From assembly GCF_000018025.1 (NCBI RefSeq), contig NC_009831.1, forward strand, positions 3,968,001-4,032,000: a DNA stretch of 64,000 nucleotides, given 5' to 3'. The notes below the pieces were generated by a model that had not been told where the DNA came from, did not search any database, and was given only the letters and a program-made list of their open reading frames with translations. Position 1 is the first letter of the stretch, and each line of letters opens with the position of its first letter. The position numbers and the translations under genes were made by a program. Shown piece by piece: positions 40,185 through 50,355 of this stretch. The stretch is from Shewanella sediminis HAW-EB3. Lineage in GTDB: Bacteria; Pseudomonadota; Gammaproteobacteria; Enterobacterales; Shewanellaceae.

Positions 40185-40209
40185 AAACAAAACAGATGAG
40201 GAAAAAGAG

Positions 40210-40695
40210 ATGACGACATCCATTTATGATTTTTCGGTCAAGGATATTCAGGGAGAAGCAGTTTCGCTTTCTCAATTCAAAGGCAAGGTACTGCTCATAG
40301 TTAATACCGCCAGTGCTTGTGGTTTCACGCCTCAATATAAAAGCCTGCAGGCGCTCTACGAAAAGTATGGACCAGATAATTTCGTCATACTGGGGTTTCC
40401 CTGTAATCAATTCGGTGAACAAGAGAGCGGTAGTGAAGATCAAATTCAATCTTTTTGTGAATTGAACTTCGGGGTCAGTTTCCCACTGTTTGAAAAAATA
40501 GAGGTCAATGGCGAAGGAGCGCACCCGCTATATCAATATATGAAATCATCGGCTAAAGGCATATTGGGCAGCGAAGGGATAAAGTGGAATTTTACTAAAT
40601 TCTTAATCGATGCAGACGGAAAGGTTCTCGAGCGTTACGCCTCAACCACTAAACCCGAATCGATAGAAAAGAGAATAATTAGTTTACTTGAATAA
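40210..40695 (+). CDS. Glutathione peroxidase (cysteine type)
   Basis: 161 residues from ATG 40210 with RBS gaggaaaaagag; the frame is open upstream but includes the promoter. The peroxidatic residue is Cys37 in NTASACGFTPQY (not selenocysteine), with the family partners Gln in GFPCNQFGEQE and Trp/Asn in IKWNFTKFLID. It reduces hydrogen peroxide and lipid hydroperoxides, usually with thioredoxin or glutathione as donor. Monocistronic. Confidence 0.93.
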   Translation: MTTSIYDFSVKDIQGEAVSLSQFKGKVLLIVNTASACGFTPQYKSLQALYEKYGPDNFVILGFPCNQFGEQESGSEDQIQSFCELNFGVSFPLFEKIEVNGEGAHPLYQYMKSSAKGILGSEGIKWNFTKFLIDADGKVLERYASTTKPESIEKRIISLLE

Positions 40696-40750
40696 ACAAT
40701 AAGATAAATAAATTCGTGCAAAAAACCACAAAAAACATGATTACTTTTTG

Positions 40751-40776
40751 AACTTTTACGTCTCTGGAGCATCAAA
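40751..40776 (+). promoter_or_regulatory. Sigma-E promoter of sRNA copy 1
   Basis: AACTT (40751-40755), 16-base spacer, TCAAA (40772-40776): both elements match the RpoE consensus. Confidence 0.75.
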
Positions 40777-40782
40777 ATATAT

Positions 40783-40887
40783 GAACAGCGAAATGCTTTT
40801 TCTTGTTCATCATTCTCCCGGGACTTCTAGCGCGGTCCCCTTGATCTTTCGAGATCATCAGGCAGCCAGATGGTTGCCCTTTTTTTG
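40783..40887 (+). ncRNA. Predicted sigma-E-dependent small RNA, copy 1
   Basis: The start site is inferred a few bases after the -10 element. The roughly 105-base RNA begins with ATGAAC, which can pair with its own GTTCAT at 40805-40810. It carries the family element GTTCATCATTCTCCC, a small hairpin gggac/gtccc that encloses the family motif CTAGCGC (40827-40833), a tgatc/gatca hairpin, and a terminator ggcagcc-agat-ggttgcc followed by T7. An open frame crosses it from 40748 but reads through the terminator and is not conserved among copies, so I call it RNA, not protein. Confidence 0.7.
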
Positions 40888-40973
40888 CCTGCAGCATTTG
40901 TCTGCAACAAGAGCACGCCGAAGAATTTTGATCGATTCAAAAAGATTTTTTAAACTATTTATTACCCGATTTG

Positions 40974-40999
40974 AACTTTTCGCCATAGTGACACTCTGA
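40974..40999 (+). promoter_or_regulatory. Sigma-E promoter of sRNA copy 2
   Basis: AACTT (40974-40978), 16-base spacer, TCTGA (40995-40999). Confidence 0.75.
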
Positions 41000-41005
41000 A
41001 TATAT

Positions 41006-41197
41006 GTAGCGAGTTAAGTGTTACATGTTAATGTTTTCATCATGGTTCATCACCTCCCTTTAGGGTCTCAACTGAGTTCCCGCAGGAAGAGTTAAGCAGA
41101 CTGCTAGCGCTAATTGCTTATCGATTCCAGATACTGATTCTTATTAAGAATGTTATGGCATCCCAACTCGATAGAGAAAATGGATGCCATTTTTTTT
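41006..41197 (+). ncRNA. Predicted sigma-E-dependent small RNA, copy 2
   Basis: About 190 bases. Family element GTTCATCACCTCCC at 41045-41058, then a hairpin gggtctca/tgagttccc, motif CTAGCGC (41104-41110), and a perfect terminator atggcatcc (41155-41163) / ggatgccat (41182-41190) followed by T7. The sequence between the shared elements differs from copies 3-6, while the order of elements and the hairpin position are kept. Its first ATG is followed directly by TAG, so no peptide is conserved. Confidence 0.72.
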
Positions 41198-41300
41198 GTC
41201 TGTTTAAAGCAGTGATAAGTGCAGTAGCCCCAGGAAACGGACAGACTAACCACACAGCTCACGGCAGCTTACCAAACCGATGAATCGAACTTAATACGGT

Positions 41301-43094
41301 TTATGACGAGGTAAATTTTAAACTCTTATCCAGTTGAACCACGATAGATGGGTGATAGCCCTTTCTGGCCTTATCATAAATTGCTTTAATCTCTGTATCG
41401 TAACCCGCCACCTGAAGTTCAGAGAACAGAGGTCTGACAAACTTACCTCGCCCGATCCGAATTAAGTACTCCGTCAGTGCAGGAAGGACCGGGTCATAAT
41501 GGTTTCGAATCGCCACACGGAACCAGTCACAAGCGATTTCAGCATTGGTAGACGCCGTTAATTTGAAGCAATCATCTAACTCCATCAACTGGGCCTGCGG
41601 TAATACTTCCGGCAAACTAGTCAGGAAATATTGCCAATGGTGTACACGCCAACTCTGCGTCGCTAATGATTCGGCGCTAGCCCCTTTCAACCACATTGAA
41701 AGTGCAACATCGACCTTATCAAGACTATCCGATTGAGGAGGTGTAAAGCACGAAGGCATACCACAGCCATAGATCCACTCTAACAACTCAGCCTCGGTAA
41801 TTTTATCGGCGTGTTGGATCAGTAACGTATCTCTGGCGTATTCAACAAACACTTCGGTCGTTATCGCCTGAAATGCGAAATGCTGAACATAGTGATAGAG
41901 AAACTTATCGAATACCTCTCTACCTAGTCGTTTCTCGAGATCGTGAACAAACATTGACGCCTTGTCATAGGTAAAGCGATTGAAGGCATCATTGGGATCT
42001 TGTGTCTGTACATTCGCGGGGAGGTTTTGAGCTTCAAATGCCGTTGTCGCCAGCTCCTCCTTTAAGCGTCCATACTCTATGACGACTTCAAGCTCCGCCT
42101 GCTCTTTACCGAATACCGCCTCGACTATCCGGTTAGTGAAGTAGGTCGTAAAACCTTCGTTCAGCCAGAGATCTCGCCAGGTGGCGTTGCTGACTAAGTT
42201 TCCGGTCCATGAGTGTGCCAACTCATGGGCAACGGTGGACACTAAACTCTTATCGCCCGCAATCAAGGTCGGGGTGATGAATGCCAGTCGTGGGTTCTCC
42301 ATCCCCCCAAACGGAAAACTGGGCGGCAATACAATCATGTCATATCGCCCCCAGGGGTAGGGCCCTAGCAAGGATTCGGCAATTTCAACCATCTTCTCGG
42401 TGTCTTCAAACTCTTTTACTGCAGCGGCCAGCACTTCCGGTTCGGCATAGACACCGGTTCGCTCTCCAATTTTGCCAAAGGCAAGCTCTCCCACCGCTAT
42501 CGCTAACAGGTGAGTCGGCATCGCCTTCTCCATCGAGAAGGTAAACAGCCCGTCTAAATCCGCACCGGCATCGTTCATCGCACTCATAACGGCGCGCATG
42601 CCAAGTGGCACGGTAACACTGGCTTCGAAGGTTATTCGGGCCTTGGGGCTGTCTTGCAGTGGGATCCAACTTCTTGCATTAATCGGTTGAGATTGGCTAA
42701 ACAGAAATGGCAGTTTTTTACCGCTGGTTTGCTCCGGCGTCAGCCATTGTAAACCTTGTGCATCGGGGGAAGTAAGGTAATGCACCCTGACCTTAGTTGT
42801 TGCCGACTTCAATGCAATATTCAGTCTCTGTCCTAAGACTGAGTCCTCTCTATCTATGTTAAAGGCTAACAGCTCTTCATTATCATCCACCACCTTAATA
42901 ATCGATAGTTCGCGCAGATCCAACCAAAGTTCACGACAGGATTTGTCGATAAACTCCAGATCGAGTTCGGCAACACCCGATAACTGCTTAGAGTGAAAAT
43001 CGACATCGAGTGTAAGTGCAAGGTGTCGAACTCTGACTTCATCTACGTTGGCGAATGAATGATAGTCGTGATTGTTATCCCATCGATTTGGCAC
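41301..43094 (-). CDS. M1-family metallopeptidase (leukotriene-A4-hydrolase-like aminopeptidase)
   Basis: 597 residues, the size of the LTA4H-type M1 enzymes. N-terminal saddle domain, then the exopeptidase motif FGGMENPRL, zinc site HELAHSWTGN near residue 289 with the third ligand Glu in WLNEGFTTYFTNRI, and an LTA4H-type helical C-terminal domain (RVHHWQYFLTSLPEVL to the end). No signal peptide, so cytoplasmic. It removes N-terminal residues from peptides. Its gene separates the two sRNA clusters. Confidence 0.93.
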   Translation of the reverse strand: MPNRWDNNHDYHSFANVDEVRVRHLALTLDVDFHSKQLSGVAELDLEFIDKSCRELWLDLRELSIIKVVDDNEELLAFNIDREDSVLGQRLNIALKSATTKVRVHYLTSPDAQGLQWLTPEQTSGKKLPFLFSQSQPINARSWIPLQDSPKARITFEASVTVPLGMRAVMSAMNDAGADLDGLFTFSMEKAMPTHLLAIAVGELAFGKIGERTGVYAEPEVLAAAVKEFEDTEKMVEIAESLLGPYPWGRYDMIVLPPSFPFGGMENPRLAFITPTLIAGDKSLVSTVAHELAHSWTGNLVSNATWRDLWLNEGFTTYFTNRIVEAVFGKEQAELEVVIEYGRLKEELATTAFEAQNLPANVQTQDPNDAFNRFTYDKASMFVHDLEKRLGREVFDKFLYHYVQHFAFQAITTEVFVEYARDTLLIQHADKITEAELLEWIYGCGMPSCFTPPQSDSLDKVDVALSMWLKGASAESLATQSWRVHHWQYFLTSLPEVLPQAQLMELDDCFKLTASTNAEIACDWFRVAIRNHYDPVLPALTEYLIRIGRGKFVRPLFSELQVAGYDTEIKAIYDKARKGYHPSIVVQLDKSLKFTSS

Positions 43095-43248
43095 TGGTTC
43101 TTCCTTTTAAAAGCGGCAGAGTAAGAGACTTCTTATCGTTTTAAATATATTACATTAGGTTTGGTTGTCATGGTAATTGACATAAATACACTAAGATGAA
43201 ACACTTGGCGGATATTGTATACAAAAGCCATTTTTGAGGAAACATTTA

Positions 43249-44133
43249 GTGAACAGAACTCATTTACTCCCTATCACCGGCATCTTATGTTTGTGCTCAT
43301 CTATGGTACAAGGCCAGGAAATTGCGCCATTACCTGAAGTGTTGATACAGAACCATGCATGCAGCGACACCATAGTGATCCGCTCTCAAGCATTGACGAA
43401 AACTCAGATAGAGCAAGCCTGTGAACTAATGAGTAAGCAGGAGGTTAAGTTTCATCAGCTTTTTGGTACTCAAGGTAAACCGGTAACGAATGATAATAAT
43501 GTGAGCATGCGAGCGAATGTCTACCACTCCAGTGACGATTACAAGCGCTATGTGACGGCTCATTTCGATGTGCCCAGTGACAATGGCGGCATGTTCTTAG
43601 AGGGGTTACCACACAAGGCTGACAATCAGGCAGAATTTGTTGCCTATGAAAAAAAGGGGCAGATCTGGAACCTGGCACATGAATATGTGCACTATTTAGA
43701 TGGGCACTTCAACTTGTATGGTGATTTTTGTGCATCACTGCATGACTCCCACAGCGCCCCCGAATACTGCCCCAAACCAGCACCTCTGCTCCCCCACTTA
43801 GTGTGGTGGAGTGAAGGGTTAGGCGAGTACATCTCTCATGGCGATGATAATGCACCAGCCATTGCCATAGCGAAGAGACCCACCAGCGAAGGGAAAAACT
43901 ATCAACTGAGTGAGCTGTTTAACACCAGCTATGAGAAAAATGGCGGCGGTGAGCGTGTCTATCGGTGGGGCTATCTCGCTGTGCGCTTTATGATGGAGCA
44001 ACATAAAGATAAGGTCGATACCATGCTTTCTTTTACCCGTAAGGGCGACTATCCAAGATATCAAGCCCTGGTTAATGAGTGGGGAACCAGCATGGATGAG
44101 GAGTTCCAGAGCTGGTTAAAGAGATTAAGTTAA
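43249..44133 (+). CDS. Secreted collagenase-like (M9) metalloprotease core
   Basis: 294 residues from GTG 43249, with gagga eight bases upstream; a TTG five codons earlier is the only other option. Signal peptide to VQG. The zinc site H144-E-Y-V-H148 in NLAHEYVHYLDGHFNLYG and E189 in VWWSEGLGEYISHGDDN match the gluzincin core of bacterial collagenases (M9), which also read HEYVHYLDG..WWxEGxxEY. The activator domain and PKD/collagen-binding domains of real collagenases are absent. Activity is likely proteolytic, with the substrate open. Confidence 0.8.
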   Translation: MNRTHLLPITGILCLCSSMVQGQEIAPLPEVLIQNHACSDTIVIRSQALTKTQIEQACELMSKQEVKFHQLFGTQGKPVTNDNNVSMRANVYHSSDDYKRYVTAHFDVPSDNGGMFLEGLPHKADNQAEFVAYEKKGQIWNLAHEYVHYLDGHFNLYGDFCASLHDSHSAPEYCPKPAPLLPHLVWWSEGLGEYISHGDDNAPAIAIAKRPTSEGKNYQLSELFNTSYEKNGGGERVYRWGYLAVRFMMEQHKDKVDTMLSFTRKGDYPRYQALVNEWGTSMDEEFQSWLKRLS

Positions 44134-44198
44134 GCCCTCTGTTTCCAATAGTTTTAAAAGATATAAGAAAATAGATAAAAAAAAGGGATGAAAGATTG

Positions 44199-44224
44199 AA
44201 CCAATTAAAAAATGGTCTGTCTTA
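44199..44224 (+). promoter_or_regulatory. Degenerate sigma-E-like promoter of sRNA copy 3
   Basis: AACCA-N16-TCTTA at the position that aligns with AACTT-N16-TCTGA of the other copies; the bases that matter most for sigma-E are altered. Confidence 0.4.
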
Positions 44225-44230
44225 TTTTAT

Positions 44231-44404
44231 GAATCCGTTACATTGCATCATTTTTTGTTTTGTTACCGTTCATCATCATTCTCCCTTGGTAACCTGTTTG
44301 GGTTATCTAAAGAAGGCTCAGGCCCTGCTAGCGCTCAGTCAGACTCTTCTTTTTAAGTTTATCGAACTTTTTATGGCAACCCGATAAGGGTTGCCATTTT
44401 TTTT
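44231..44404 (+). ncRNA. Predicted small RNA, copy 3 (weak or decayed promoter)
   Basis: From the family element GTTCATCATCATTCTCCC (44268-44285) onward it is nearly identical to copies 4 and 5: hairpin ggtaacc-tgtttg-ggttatc, motif CTAGCGC (44328-44334) and terminator atggcaaccc (44373-44382) / gggttgccat (44388-44397) plus T8. Upstream of the element it differs. An open frame (44196-44387) exists through the whole unit only in this copy and is interrupted in copies 4 and 5, so it is not evidence for a protein. Confidence 0.55.
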
Positions 44405-44574
44405 GCCCGCGACTCTCATTACGCTCTTCTCGTTACCCGCTTCTAGTCCCCTCTTCTAATGAATAGTGCAGCACTAATACCAATCGGTATAACCGCCTTT
44501 CAAAGAGAGTAAGCCCGGCATATAAACAATTTTGAACTTTTTAGATATTTTTAACTATTTTAACTATTGCTATG

Positions 44575-44600
44575 AACTTTTTAAATTTGCTGCACTCTGA
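44575..44600 (+). promoter_or_regulatory. Sigma-E promoter of sRNA copy 4
   Basis: AACTT (44575-44579), 16-base spacer, TCTGA (44596-44600). A second gaactttt at 44533 has no matching -10 element. Confidence 0.78.
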
Positions 44601-44606
44601 GTATAT

Positions 44607-44803
44607 GAACCGAATTTATGGCTTCGATGGTTAACACTTAATAATTATCGATTACCGCTTTTTCACTGTTCATCATCATCTCCCTTGGTAACCTGTTTGG
44701 GTTATCTAAAGAAGGCTCAGACATTGCTAGCGCTCAGTCAGACTCTTCTTTTTAAGTTTATCGAACTTTTTATGGCAACCCGATAAGGGTTGCCATTTTT
44801 TTT
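44607..44803 (+). ncRNA. Predicted sigma-E-dependent small RNA, copy 4
   Basis: About 197 bases. Begins around ATGAACCGAATTTATGG, has GTTCATCATCAT (44668-44679) directly followed by CTCCC (44680-44684), hairpin ggtaacc/ggttatc, CTAGCGC (44727-44733), and terminator atggcaaccc/gggttgccat then T8. The 5' ATGAAC can pair with the GTTCAT of the element. The unit is repeated downstream as copy 5. Confidence 0.75.
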
Positions 44804-45012
44804 ACCCATTTTCCATCTCCGGTCCGGCTCGATTGATGACGCACCACAGTTTTAAAAGATCGCCGCAGCGCTAACGAACCATCGCGCCTCTAACTTACCG
44901 CACCGCCTCACCGAACTGTCAGCTCCGTATTGAGATAAAATAGCGAGATAAAAATAGCGAGATAAAAAATAGTGAGATCTTATTTATTTTAACTATTTCA
45001 GATAAACCAATG

Positions 45013-45038
45013 AACTTTTTAAGCTGACAGCACTCTGA
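45013..45038 (+). promoter_or_regulatory. Sigma-E promoter of sRNA copy 5
   Basis: AACTT (45013-45017), 16-base spacer, TCTGA (45034-45038). Confidence 0.78.
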
Positions 45039-45044
45039 GTATAT

Positions 45045-45256
45045 GAACCGAATTTATGGCTTCGATGGTTAGCACTAGTAAATTATTAGTTATCTAGTTA
45101 TCGATTACCGCTTTTTCACTGTTCATCATCATCTCCCTTGGTAACCTGTTTGGGTTATCTAAAGAAGGCTCAGACATTGCTAGCGCTCAGTCAGACTCTT
45201 CTTTTTAAGTTTATCGAACTTTTTATGGCAACCCGATAAGGGTTGCCATTTTTTTT
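45045..45256 (+). ncRNA. Predicted sigma-E-dependent small RNA, copy 5
   Basis: About 212 bases, nearly identical to copy 4 except for a short AT-rich insertion near 45075-45098 before the family element. GTTCATCATCAT 45121-45132, CTCCC 45133-45137, CTAGCGC 45180-45186, terminator atggcaaccc/gggttgccat ending in T8 at 45256. Confidence 0.75.
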
Positions 45257-45441
45257 GCCCGTTTTCCATCTCCGGTCCGGCTCGATTGATGACGCTTCAC
45301 CGTTAAAAAAGATCGCCTCAGCGCTAACAAGCCGCCGTGGCTCTAACTCACCGCACCGCCTCACCGATCAGGCGGAGCCACATCAAGATTATAAATAGTG
45401 AGTTTTTATTATCTGTTTTAACTATTTCTGATAAACCAATG

Positions 45442-45467
45442 AACTTTTTAAGCTTGTTGCACTCTGA
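45442..45467 (+). promoter_or_regulatory. Sigma-E promoter of sRNA copy 6
   Basis: AACTT (45442-45446), 16-base spacer, TCTGA (45463-45467). Confidence 0.78.
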
Positions 45468-45473
45468 GTATAT

Positions 45474-45634
45474 GAACCGAATTTATGGCTTCGATGGTTA
45501 ACACTTAATAATTATCGATTACCGCTTTTTCACTGTTCATCATCATCTCTACTTTTTGGTAGTTTCTAGCGCAACTGCCCACCTAATTCCAAATCTTGGA
45601 ACTTGTAACGACCTTAATCGGGTCGTTTTTTTTT
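45474..45634 (+). ncRNA. Predicted sigma-E-dependent small RNA, copy 6 (different 3' half)
   Basis: About 160 bases. The promoter and first 75 bases equal copy 4, including GTTCATCATCATCTC (45535-45549), then the sequence changes completely. CTAGCGC is still present (45566-45572), and the terminator is a different one, aacgacc (45607-45613) / ggtcgtt (45621-45627) with a T8 tail. The anti-Shine-Dalgarno part is CTCTAC instead of CTCCCTT, so its targets may differ. Confidence 0.68.
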
Positions 45635-45659
45635 GCCTGAAATTTGAAAGATAAAGAAA

Positions 45660-45687
45660 GGTGCGAGGTGCGAGGTGCGAGGTGCGA
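45660..45687. repeat. Four tandem copies of a 7-bp unit (ggtgcga)
   Basis: ggtgcga repeated four times without interruption, directly followed by the REP-like element. A single related gcgaggtgcgagg occurs at 33289. Confidence 0.85.
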
Positions 45688-45693
45688 AAAAGT

Positions 45694-45720
45694 ATTCGCG
45701 ACTAAAGCCGCTCCTACAAG
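45694..45720. repeat. REP-like element
   Basis: attcgcgactaaagccgctcctacaag is, on the other strand, of the GTAGGAGCGG...CCGCGAAT type, which is a common family of gammaproteobacterial repetitive extragenic palindromes. Its inverted arms are gcgac(t)aaagccgc. Confidence 0.65.
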
Positions 45721-45850: not shown

Positions 45851-46822
45851 TTAAAGACGGATACCCGCTTTCTCTAAGTCTTTAGCCGTTACACTGCGAG
45901 GTAGTGGAACATAGCCATCTTTCTCAACAATTTGCTGGCCCTGCTTCGACAGTGCAAACTTCAGGAACTCACGGTCCATAGGCGCTAAGTCTTTATTCGG
46001 ATGCTTATTCACATAAACATAAAGGTAGCGTGACAGAGGATAAGTACCACTTGCAGCATTCGCAGCCGTTGCCTCTATGAACTTAGTGCCCTTCTTAGAG
46101 ATAGCTACCGCTTTAACGCCAGCCGTCTTATAGCCGATACCTGAGTAACCGATAGCATTCAGCGATTGTGAGACCGACTGAACGACAGATGCAGACCCTG
46201 GCTGCTCATTCACATTAGCCTTAAAGTCCCCCTTACAGAGTGCTTTCTTCTTAAAGTAACCATAGGTACCCGACACTGAGTTACGGCCATATAGCTGCAC
46301 ATCTCTGGCAGACCAGCCCCCCTCTAACCCAAGGTCGCCCCAACGCTTAACGTCGCTGCCGCCACACTTATGAGTAGCAGAGAAGATGTTATCTATCTGT
46401 TCAATGCTTAACCCTTTGATAGGGTTATCTTTATGAACGAAGACTGCAAGGGCATCGATAGCCACACGAATAGCCGTTGGCTGATAGCCATAATGCTTCT
46501 CGAACGCTTCAACTTCATTTGGCTTCATCTTACGACTCATAGGACCAAATTGAGATGTGCCTTCTGTCAGTGCCGGTGGCGCTGTAGAGGAACCTGCCGC
46601 TTGAATTTGGATGTTCACGTTTGGATACATCTCTTTAAACTCTTCAGCCCAGAGTGTCATCATGTTTGCCAAAGTATCAGAACCGACCGATGAAAGGTTA
46701 CCCGATACGCCACTCGATTTTTCATACACAGGTAGCGACTGATCGATTGCAGCCATAGATGCTGCAGAAAATACACTAGCGGCTGTAAAACTAACCGCAC
46801 TGACAAGCTGTTTCAGTTTCAT
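45851..46822 (-). CDS. pstS: Phosphate-binding protein of the Pst ABC transporter
   Basis: 323 residues with a signal peptide (ending SMA). Phosphate-pocket segments are present: [49 protein letters not shown]. It delivers phosphate to PstCAB, but the permease genes are not adjacent. A PhoB promoter lies upstream. It belongs to the PstS branch usually encoded next to phoBR in Shewanella, and a second PstS with a pstCAB operon is expected elsewhere in the genome. Confidence 0.92.
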
Positions 46823-49410: not shown

Positions 49411-50355
49411 TTAGAACTTGTGTTCCAGACCCAGGCCGAAGAATTTATCATCATTCTCATCGCCCTCAAAGGCACGGTTCGAGTAGAAGGCAAACAGCTT
49501 AGTCGGCTTTCCTAACTTGTAATCACCGCCAACAGACCAGGAATCGCCCTTGTTTTCCATATCCTGATACTGAGCCTTCAAGACTACCGCATCGATCTTA
49601 TACGCCGCACTCAAGAGGTAACCTGTATCACTGTCGTTAGATACGGCTTGACCATCGTCGAAGGTCTTCTCCTGCTGCTGGTACATACCACCAATTTTAA
49701 GGCCTGCAATTTTGCCCTGTACACTTGCACGAACAATTTCGTAGCCTTTGACATCTGAGTCATAGGCAATCGATGCATAGACAGGAGACTTCTTTAACTT
49801 GGAATCACCATACATGGCCGCAACACTGAAACCATCCTGGCCTTGCTGGTCGCTATCGCCTTCGGCTGCGTAGGTGACACCAAGCTTAAATCCACTGAAA
49901 GAGGGAGTGATATAAGTGGCCGTCTGAGCCAGACGGTTCTCACCCTTAAACAGGTTTTTCAAATCACCGGAAAGGTCGTTGAATTGATCTATCTTACCCT
50001 GTGATTGCTTTAACATAGTGTCGTTACGACCCACAGACACGGCACCAAAGCTGCCTTTAAGGCCCACGAATTGATTACGTGCCTTGAAGTTCTCTTTCGT
50101 ATCATCACCGGTATCGACTTCATACTCGATAGTGTAAAAAGCTTCCAAAGAGTTACTCAATTCAAATGTCCCCTTTGCGCCGAAGCGAGAGGCATTACTC
50201 TGAATCGTTGTTGTAGCATCACCACCGACATCATTAGACTGAGCCGTTACGTTCAACTTACCGTATACAGTGAGCGGCTCAGCAGCATGTGCAGAAGCCA
50301 GAGTTGCAGTAGCAAGAGCAGATGCCAGTAAAGTTTTACAGAAAACGTTCATCAT
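49411..50355 (-). CDS. Outer-membrane porin (Gram-negative porin family)
   Basis: 314 residues. Signal peptide to AHA; the mature start EPLTVYGKLNVTAQSND and repeated amphipathic strands such as FELSNSLEAFYTIEYEVD and FVGLKGSFGAVSVGRND are typical of trimeric general porins, with a C-terminal LEHKF ending in the aromatic Phe. It lies directly upstream of phoB on the same strand, as in other Shewanella, where this porin is phosphate-related; I see no Pho box before it. Its mRNA starts AUGAUGAAC, matching the small-RNA element at 40805 and following. Confidence 0.92.
   Translation of the reverse strand: MMNVFCKTLLASALATATLASAHAAEPLTVYGKLNVTAQSNDVGGDATTTIQSNASRFGAKGTFELSNSLEAFYTIEYEVDTGDDTKENFKARNQFVGLKGSFGAVSVGRNDTMLKQSQGKIDQFNDLSGDLKNLFKGENRLAQTATYITPSFSGFKLGVTYAAEGDSDQQGQDGFSVAAMYGDSKLKKSPVYASIAYDSDVKGYEIVRASVQGKIAGLKIGGMYQQQEKTFDDGQAVSNDSDTGYLLSAAYKIDAVVLKAQYQDMENKGDSWSVGGDYKLGKPTKLFAFYSNRAFEGDENDDKFFGLGLEHKF

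Follow-up and report, generated by a model that had tools for sequence, protein, structure and literature searches.

Six related units in two intergenic clusters

The window, 64,000 nucleotides of the Shewanella sediminis HAW-EB3 genome (positions 3,968,001-4,032,000 of 5,517,674 bases), contains six related intergenic units, c1 to c6, which are probably sibling small RNAs controlled by the sigma factor sigma-E (RpoE) and thereby part of a non-coding arm of the Shewanella envelope-stress response. All six are located on the plus strand. The units c1 and c2 are flanked by a glutathione-peroxidase gene (40204-40695) on one side and by an M1 peptidase gene (41301-43094, minus strand) on the other; c3 to c6 are flanked by an M9 collagenase-like gene (43234-44133) and, on the far side, by a PstS-like gene (45851-46822, minus strand), the product of which was assigned to the periplasmic-binding family of Pfam. 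The units had been proposed in a preliminary description made from the sequence alone, and each was found again at its proposed position with the features listed below, in which E denotes the expectation value obtained with a covariance model of the transcripts.

40750-40776, plus strand: c1 sigma-E-like promoter GAACTT-N16-TCAAA
40779-40886 (start approximate), plus strand: c1 predicted small RNA, E 4.5e-11, in training set; GTTCATCA 40805-40812, CTAGCGC loop 40827-40833, terminator 40861-40886
40973-40999, plus strand: c2 promoter GAACTT-N16-TCTGA
41002-41200, plus strand: c2 predicted small RNA, E 5e-5, not in training set, lowest score of the six; GTTCATCA 41045-41052, CTAGCGC 41104-41110, terminator about 41155-41198
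44198-44224, plus strand: c3 degraded promoter GAACCA-N16-TCTTA
44227-44405, plus strand: c3 predicted small RNA, E 4.6e-7; GTTCATCA 44268-44275, CTAGCGC 44328-44334, terminator 44373-44405
44574-44600, plus strand: c4 promoter GAACTT-N16-TCTGA
44603-44804, plus strand: c4 predicted small RNA, E 2.8e-9; GTTCATCA 44668-44675, CTAGCGC 44727-44733, terminator 44772-44804
45012-45038, plus strand: c5 promoter GAACTT-N16-TCTGA
45041-45257, plus strand: c5 predicted small RNA, E 5.4e-9; GTTCATCA 45121-45128, CTAGCGC 45180-45186, terminator 45225-45257
45441-45467, plus strand: c6 promoter GAACTT-N16-TCTGA
45470-45636, plus strand: c6 predicted small RNA, E 2.1e-14, in training set; GTTCATCA 45535-45542, CTAGCGC 45566-45572, terminator 45607-45636

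As described previously, four units are preceded by AACTT-N16-TCTGA, c1 by AACTT-N16-TCAAA and c3 (44199) by the degraded version AACCA-N16-TCTTA. The element GTTCATCA is present in 6/6 units and occurs 11 times in the window, compared with a mean of 2.2 in shuffled sequences, none of 100 shuffles reaching 11. The motif CTAGCGC is likewise shared by 6/6 units, yet it is not rare by itself (8 occurrences in the window, 7.2 expected); its unusual trait is the fixed position in a hairpin loop. The CU-rich stretch behind GTTCATCA, originally noted as CTC(CC), reads CTCC(C) in five copies and CTCTAC in c6. Five of the six terminator hairpins were detected by a terminator scan, and that of c2, a hairpin with a longer loop, is visible in the fold only.

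The copies c3, c4 and c5 are 96-98% alike over 130 nucleotides, c4 and c5 are 91% alike over 295 nucleotides, and c4, c5 and c6 have their 5' part in common. The locus is accordingly an array of several near-identical copies, each with its own promoter and terminator, and a search of the whole genome with the covariance model (E<=0.01) yielded c1 to c6 and no other match. Two tandem repeats were also seen at the second cluster, namely three copies of AAAATAGCGAGATA, one of them with two changes, directly upstream of c5 (44937-44979), and a short repeat of AGGTGCG that lies past c6, before the PstS-like gene (45659-45686).

Promoter box of the predicted small-RNA genes

The exact sequence GAACTT-N16-TCTGA occurs five times in the whole genome, four times at the units described here, and the backward pattern occurs three times. 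A variant of the c3 type, GAACCA followed by TCCTA or TCTTA, recurs in relatives. The RpoE family model has five matches in the genome, of which a single one exceeds the cut-off, and the box GAACTT-N16-TCTAC was read by eye upstream of the best match. Since this box sits upstream of rpoE, the small-RNA box has the local sigma-E layout.

The recurrence of the box was counted at loci of relatives (L099-L145) that had been retrieved with the transcript model, which contains no promoter. Counts on a larger collection of 119 units, taken from relatives' loci and the window with a regular expression, provide no evidence in this respect, since those units had been selected for having a promoter. In a first count, 77 of 78 model hits were entered, one truncated hit being left out, of which 75 were distinct and 59 outside the training set. 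A loose form of the box was found at 46 of these 59 units and a strict form at 35, and 11,800 random windows gave 314 loose and 67 strict boxes. This count is compromised, as four of the 59 units were still window copies and many others were identical or close to promoter-picked units, and on account of this overlap it was replaced by a cleaner recount. After exclusion of the six window copies and of one hit with fewer than 60 upstream bases (71 entered, 70 kept), 30 of the 70 units were less than 85% alike to any promoter-picked unit, 14 of them being mutually distinct. In a fixed upstream window, the loose box was detected at 17/30 and the strict box at 12/30 of these clean units (7 and 5 of the 14 distinct ones), and in a wide window from -60 to +40, which allows for misplaced 5' ends, at 24/30 and 20/30 (10 and 8 of the 14). 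Random 100-base stretches of the same loci contained 492 loose (8.8%) and 202 strict boxes (3.6%) in 5,600 trials. The recurrence of the box at members found with a promoter-free model agrees with the earlier assignment of sigma-E-type promoters and indicates, as judged from sequence, that the small-RNA genes carry them.

Conserved RNA structure

For the covariance model, the 119 collected units were reduced to 79 compact ones (<=180 nucleotides) and 48 non-redundant ones, of which 44 were used with their promoters removed; two c3-like and two odd-ended units were dropped. In the alignment of the 44 transcripts, 91.1% of the cells pair under the proposed structure, and 16 of its 22 pairs change on both sides. 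A total of 146 double changes was counted, compared with 43.6 in shuffled alignments (0/500 reach the observed value) and at most 46 in slid structures, which bears out the earlier remark that the hairpin is kept while its bases vary. The covariation is carried by the CUAGCGC hairpin, the next hairpin and the terminator. RNAalifold, when run unaided, recovered the 5' helix, the CUAGCGC hairpin and the terminator. The CUAGCGC loop is nearly invariant, while the stem around it covaries, and the stretch that follows GUUCAU is predicted to be unpaired in all six copies (0.74-0.99).

At the gathering thresholds, Rfam 15 has no counterpart to the RNA, its amplification or its loop: no match was obtained in the window, and among five matches up to E=10 in the region 40700-45700 none was to MicA or RybB. 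The family had indeed been proposed to be unrelated to known small RNAs.

Distribution in the genus Shewanella

A BLASTn search with c6 detected relatives in 45 of 117 Shewanella genomes, including that of S. sediminis itself. The core DNA pattern, applied to 84,980 species with one genome each, returned 34 stretches, of which 33 belong to Shewanella and one (L044), found by the DNA pattern and outside the covariance-model search, is titled Alkalibaculum. The search of Shewanella genomes with a covariance model, as suggested in the preliminary description, resulted in matches in 129/129 genomes (E<=0.001). The 498 matches amount to 1-8 per genome, with 2-6 in 119 genomes and two or more in 124. 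Of 295 genomes sampled from the order, 21 were matched, all of them Shewanella; the other 274, which include one other genus of the family, gave no match under the stricter Infernal filters used, by which weak relatives outside Shewanella could be missed. Within the searched genomes the matches are thus confined to the genus. The notion of a multicopy Shewanella family is therefore supported, and its extent had been understated.

A relative of the glutathione-peroxidase gene gpx is located near 19 of the 34 named stretches, a pstS relative near 18 and either of them near 28, these counts being lower bounds because the stretches are 8 kb or less. In three Shewanella loci (L137, L144 and L139), tandem arrays of four to six members with a spacing of about 230-480 bases were seen.

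Candidate target genes

The unpaired stretch AUCAUCAUCUCCC is the complement of a Shine-Dalgarno sequence plus start codon, and it is complementary to the translation starts of porins and of mtrC and omcA relatives; complementary starts were also found among relatives of MtrB and DmsE. The genome contains 38 near-complements of this stretch (GGGAGATGATGATGAAC, <=3 mismatches), compared with 8 in the backward control. Four of these sites are c3 to c6 themselves, and the other 34 were inspected in groups of 27 and 7. The first group contains the starts of genes for a Porin_4 porin, a porin-like protein, an MtrC relative, a DmsE-family decaheme cytochrome, a protein with seven CxxCH motifs, a protein weakly like a split-Soret cytochrome, two lipoproteins and an exported DUF5329 protein. 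Two further starts (L080 and L091) do not appear exported by eye, and the remaining sites are internal or without a clear gene. The second group comprises one lipoprotein-like and one porin-like start and five sites without a convincing start. One candidate is located in the window itself:

49411-50355, minus strand: Porin_4 gene, candidate target; start ATGATGAAC, exactly complementary to GTTCATCAT of the RNAs close by

This gene sits beyond the pstS-like frame and frames resembling a response regulator and a sensor kinase.

With respect to conservation, GGGA..ATGATGA is kept in 26 of 30 MtrC orthologues, the best ones from 60 genomes, one row (L224) seeming to have a wrong start, and in 19 of 29 porin_O_P orthologues (29 of 30 starts were read). 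Most of the 30 Shewanella genomes (L199-L228) have much the same mtrC start region (GCAGGGAAAAAATGATGAAC or close variants), and this likeness extends outside the Shine-Dalgarno sequence and the start codon. The porin_O_P start can form 13 contiguous pairs with c3 and five more past a bulge. When duplex energies were ranked against 686 sampled translation starts, porin_O_P came 2nd, with a lipoprotein at rank 4, a heme lipoprotein at rank 8, mtrC together with a further outer-membrane cytochrome at rank 27 and an MtrB relative at rank 34. The pattern GGGAN{2,8}ATGATGAA was found 36 times in three Shewanella genomes, 8 times inside these RNAs. Of the other 28 sites, 19 begin a frame with 100 codons or more, 16 appear exported by eye and 12 contain at least five CxxCH motifs; the best match is OmcA-like_N for two, and for several others it is the OmcA/MtrC family or its domains. 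In some members of the RNA family, TTCATCA is doubled (for example in c2 at 41036-41057 and in L043, L048, L052, L056 and L065), as in TTCATCATTGTTTGTTCATCATCTCCC of L043, and this may represent a doubled pairing site.

Alternative interpretations

It is highly improbable that the units code for short proteins or for leaderless peptides with the conserved ATATGAAC as their start. An ATG is present within the first 12 nucleotides of 73/119 units, and the peptide in c4 to c6 reads MNRIYGFDG by eye; however, 46/119 units lack this early ATG, the frames of the others extend over 1-52 codons in mixed registers relative to the conserved motif (30/27/16), and c2 reads ATG TAG. Some forward frame is open from the 5' end to the loop in 46/119 units, and no conserved reading frame is common to all 119, in line with the earlier statement that the copies share none; nor do the homologues keep a reading frame instead of the RNA elements. 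The absence of a shared frame and the variable lengths led to the rejection of small open reading frames, which were already largely refuted. It is just as improbable that a mobile or repeat element of the miniature inverted-repeat transposable (MITE) or repetitive extragenic palindromic (REP) type brought the promoter and terminator along. The tandem copies with 91-98% identity along long stretches would suit such an element, but all six genome matches lie in two intergenic clusters rather than being dispersed, the flanking genes recur in relatives, and the RNA structure shows compensatory changes. The MITE reading was rejected on the first two of these grounds.

Transcription of real small RNAs by another extracytoplasmic function (ECF) sigma factor with a similar box is rather unlikely. 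The single RpoE-family match above the cut-off among five and the systematic difference of the c3-type promoters speak for it, whereas a box of the same layout is present upstream of rpoE itself, where an autoregulated sigma-E factor is expected to carry its own. We also consider it unlikely that the RNAs act mainly as a sponge that binds protein via the CUAGCGC loop instead of pairing with mRNA. This would be in keeping with a nearly invariant loop on a covarying stem and with the presence of the loop complement GCGCTAG in only 2/686 sampled translation starts, a count that gives no support to the loop as a second mRNA-pairing site; the anti-Shine-Dalgarno and anti-start stretch is, however, conserved and unpaired as well.

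Several observations weigh against a family of sigma-E-dependent repressor RNAs. Even in the wide stretch, the box is absent from 6/30 clean units and from 4 of the 14 distinct ones (L139:1983, L141:496, L141:1111 and L145:2258). The 5' helix is almost invariant, with a double change in one pair, and is therefore neither proved nor refuted by covariation. GUUCAU itself is predicted to be paired in five of the six copies, which leaves the complementary stretch only partly free. Four genomes (G017, G056, G065 and G088) contain a single weak match each (E 5e-5 to 3e-4, the E-values of this covariance model being rough). With regard to the targets, GGGA..ATGATGAA gave 16 hits in four genomes of the order without a match to the RNA, 8 of them starts of frames with 100 codons or more and 7 of these exported-looking, with five CxxCH motifs in 0/8. 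MMK/MMN starts thus accompany exported proteins even where the RNA has no match, and the bias was rejected as proof of targeting. Furthermore, the complementary cytochrome genes are relatives of one another and not independent. In the duplex ranking, a DmsE relative was placed 87th, omcA 127th and the Porin_4 gene of the window 137th of 686 (duplex energy -16.1), which is weak, and the other Porin_4 genes were placed 99th (L152), 142nd (L149), 252nd (L153), 426th (L150) and 596th (L157). Signal-peptide genes are not significantly enriched among the best-pairing starts, as 6, 9 and 14 were found in the top 20, 40 and 68 compared with means of 3.5, 6.4 and 10.6 for shuffled seeds, of which 5, 5 and 7 of 60 reached as high. 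Repression of porins and outer-membrane cytochromes by these RNAs appears likely, and we infer it rather than observe it because the bulk test was non-significant and the outside control showed the same bias.

Taken together, the units most likely represent a Shewanella-specific, tandemly amplified family of sigma-E small RNAs that would repress outer-membrane protein synthesis. The sequence comparisons support the preliminary description as right in its observations and largely right in its interpretation.

Comparison with known small RNAs

The ompA-pairing sequence of MicA, UUAUCAUCAUCCC, resembles AUCAUCAUCUCCC of the Shewanella family, and RybB has its pairing stretch at the 5' end, whereas that of the Shewanella family is internal. 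Qrr and LhrC are multicopy sibling small RNAs with CU-rich anti-Shine-Dalgarno stretches; by description rather than by sequence, they are like the present family in these stretches and in their near-identical copies and differ in belonging to other regulons. MicA and RybB are enterobacterial sigma-E small RNAs that repress major porins (PMC11005410), to which the sigma-E-like box and the porin-start complementarity of the Shewanella family correspond; the latter differs in the lack of an Rfam match, an extra invariant CUAGCGC hairpin and several tandem copies. In Vibrio, the sigma-E-dependent VrrA (140 nucleotides), a repressor of outer-membrane proteins, pairs with the 5' region of the ompA mRNA (PMC2628432), and the sigma-E-dependent MicV likewise represses outer-membrane proteins (PMC11005410); the Shewanella family is set apart from both by having no relative in the 274 other genomes of the order, not by direct sequence comparison. 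Since sigma-E small RNAs are described to repress outer-membrane proteins in E. coli, Salmonella, Vibrio and Fusobacterium (PMC11005410, PMC2628432), this kind of RNA is already known, and the Shewanella family most likely works like MicA, RybB and VrrA without detectable homology.

In S. oneidensis, the small RNA RyhB lowers mtrC and other cytochromes (PMC5826389), an effect similar to that proposed here, but RyhB is Fur-controlled and encoded at another locus; further regulators of mtrC are said there to remain unknown. An in-silico screen of S. piezotolerans WP3 from 2017 listed 193 trans-acting small-RNA candidates (PMC5471319), which may include some of these intergenic regions; the word 'sigma' is absent from its main text. 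For S. oneidensis MR-1, 5'-end RNA sequencing (Shao et al. 2014) is reported to have mapped 2,531 start sites (PMC4417206). The titles and abstract beginnings covered by a literature search described neither this RNA family nor a small-RNA arm of the Shewanella envelope-stress response.

Proposed function and significance

Each sibling would be transcribed from its own sigma-E-type promoter and end at its own Rho-independent terminator, the U tail of which is the single sequence feature bearing on Hfq binding. The sequence supports a 5' end (AUAUGAAC) that could fold onto GUUCAU, an AUCAUCAUYCUCCC stretch predicted to be unpaired, and a hairpin whose loop presents CUAGCGC and whose stem is free to vary in sequence. 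Upon failure of outer-membrane protein folding, RpoE would make all copies together, and the unpaired stretch, with Hfq, would cover the Shine-Dalgarno sequence and start codon of mRNAs (GGGA..AUGAUGAA..), the AUCAUCAU stretch being the proposed site of direct pairing with mRNA start regions. The ribosome would thereby be blocked, with the consequence of fewer porins, outer-membrane cytochromes or lipoproteins. Several near-identical copies would provide dose, and drift between the copies might provide partly different target sets. A second contact of the CUAGCGC loop with protein or RNA is a guess, and to our knowledge no reader of this invariant motif has been described. It is possible, and suggested here tentatively, that the siblings jointly repress the outer-membrane cytochrome conduit (MtrC, OmcA and MtrB- or MtrA-like proteins), whose cytochromes enable these bacteria to respire metals, along with porins and use the loop for this second contact.

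Research on extracellular electron transfer has Shewanella as its main model. A multicopy RNA family that is matched in every searched genome of the genus and has a clearly recognizable promoter gives the putative small-RNA arm of its envelope-stress response a defined gene set. If the complementarity to the MtrC and OmcA starts is functional, it would show how membrane stress limits the electron conduit, and joint repression by the siblings, if true, would tie envelope stress to extracellular electron transfer.

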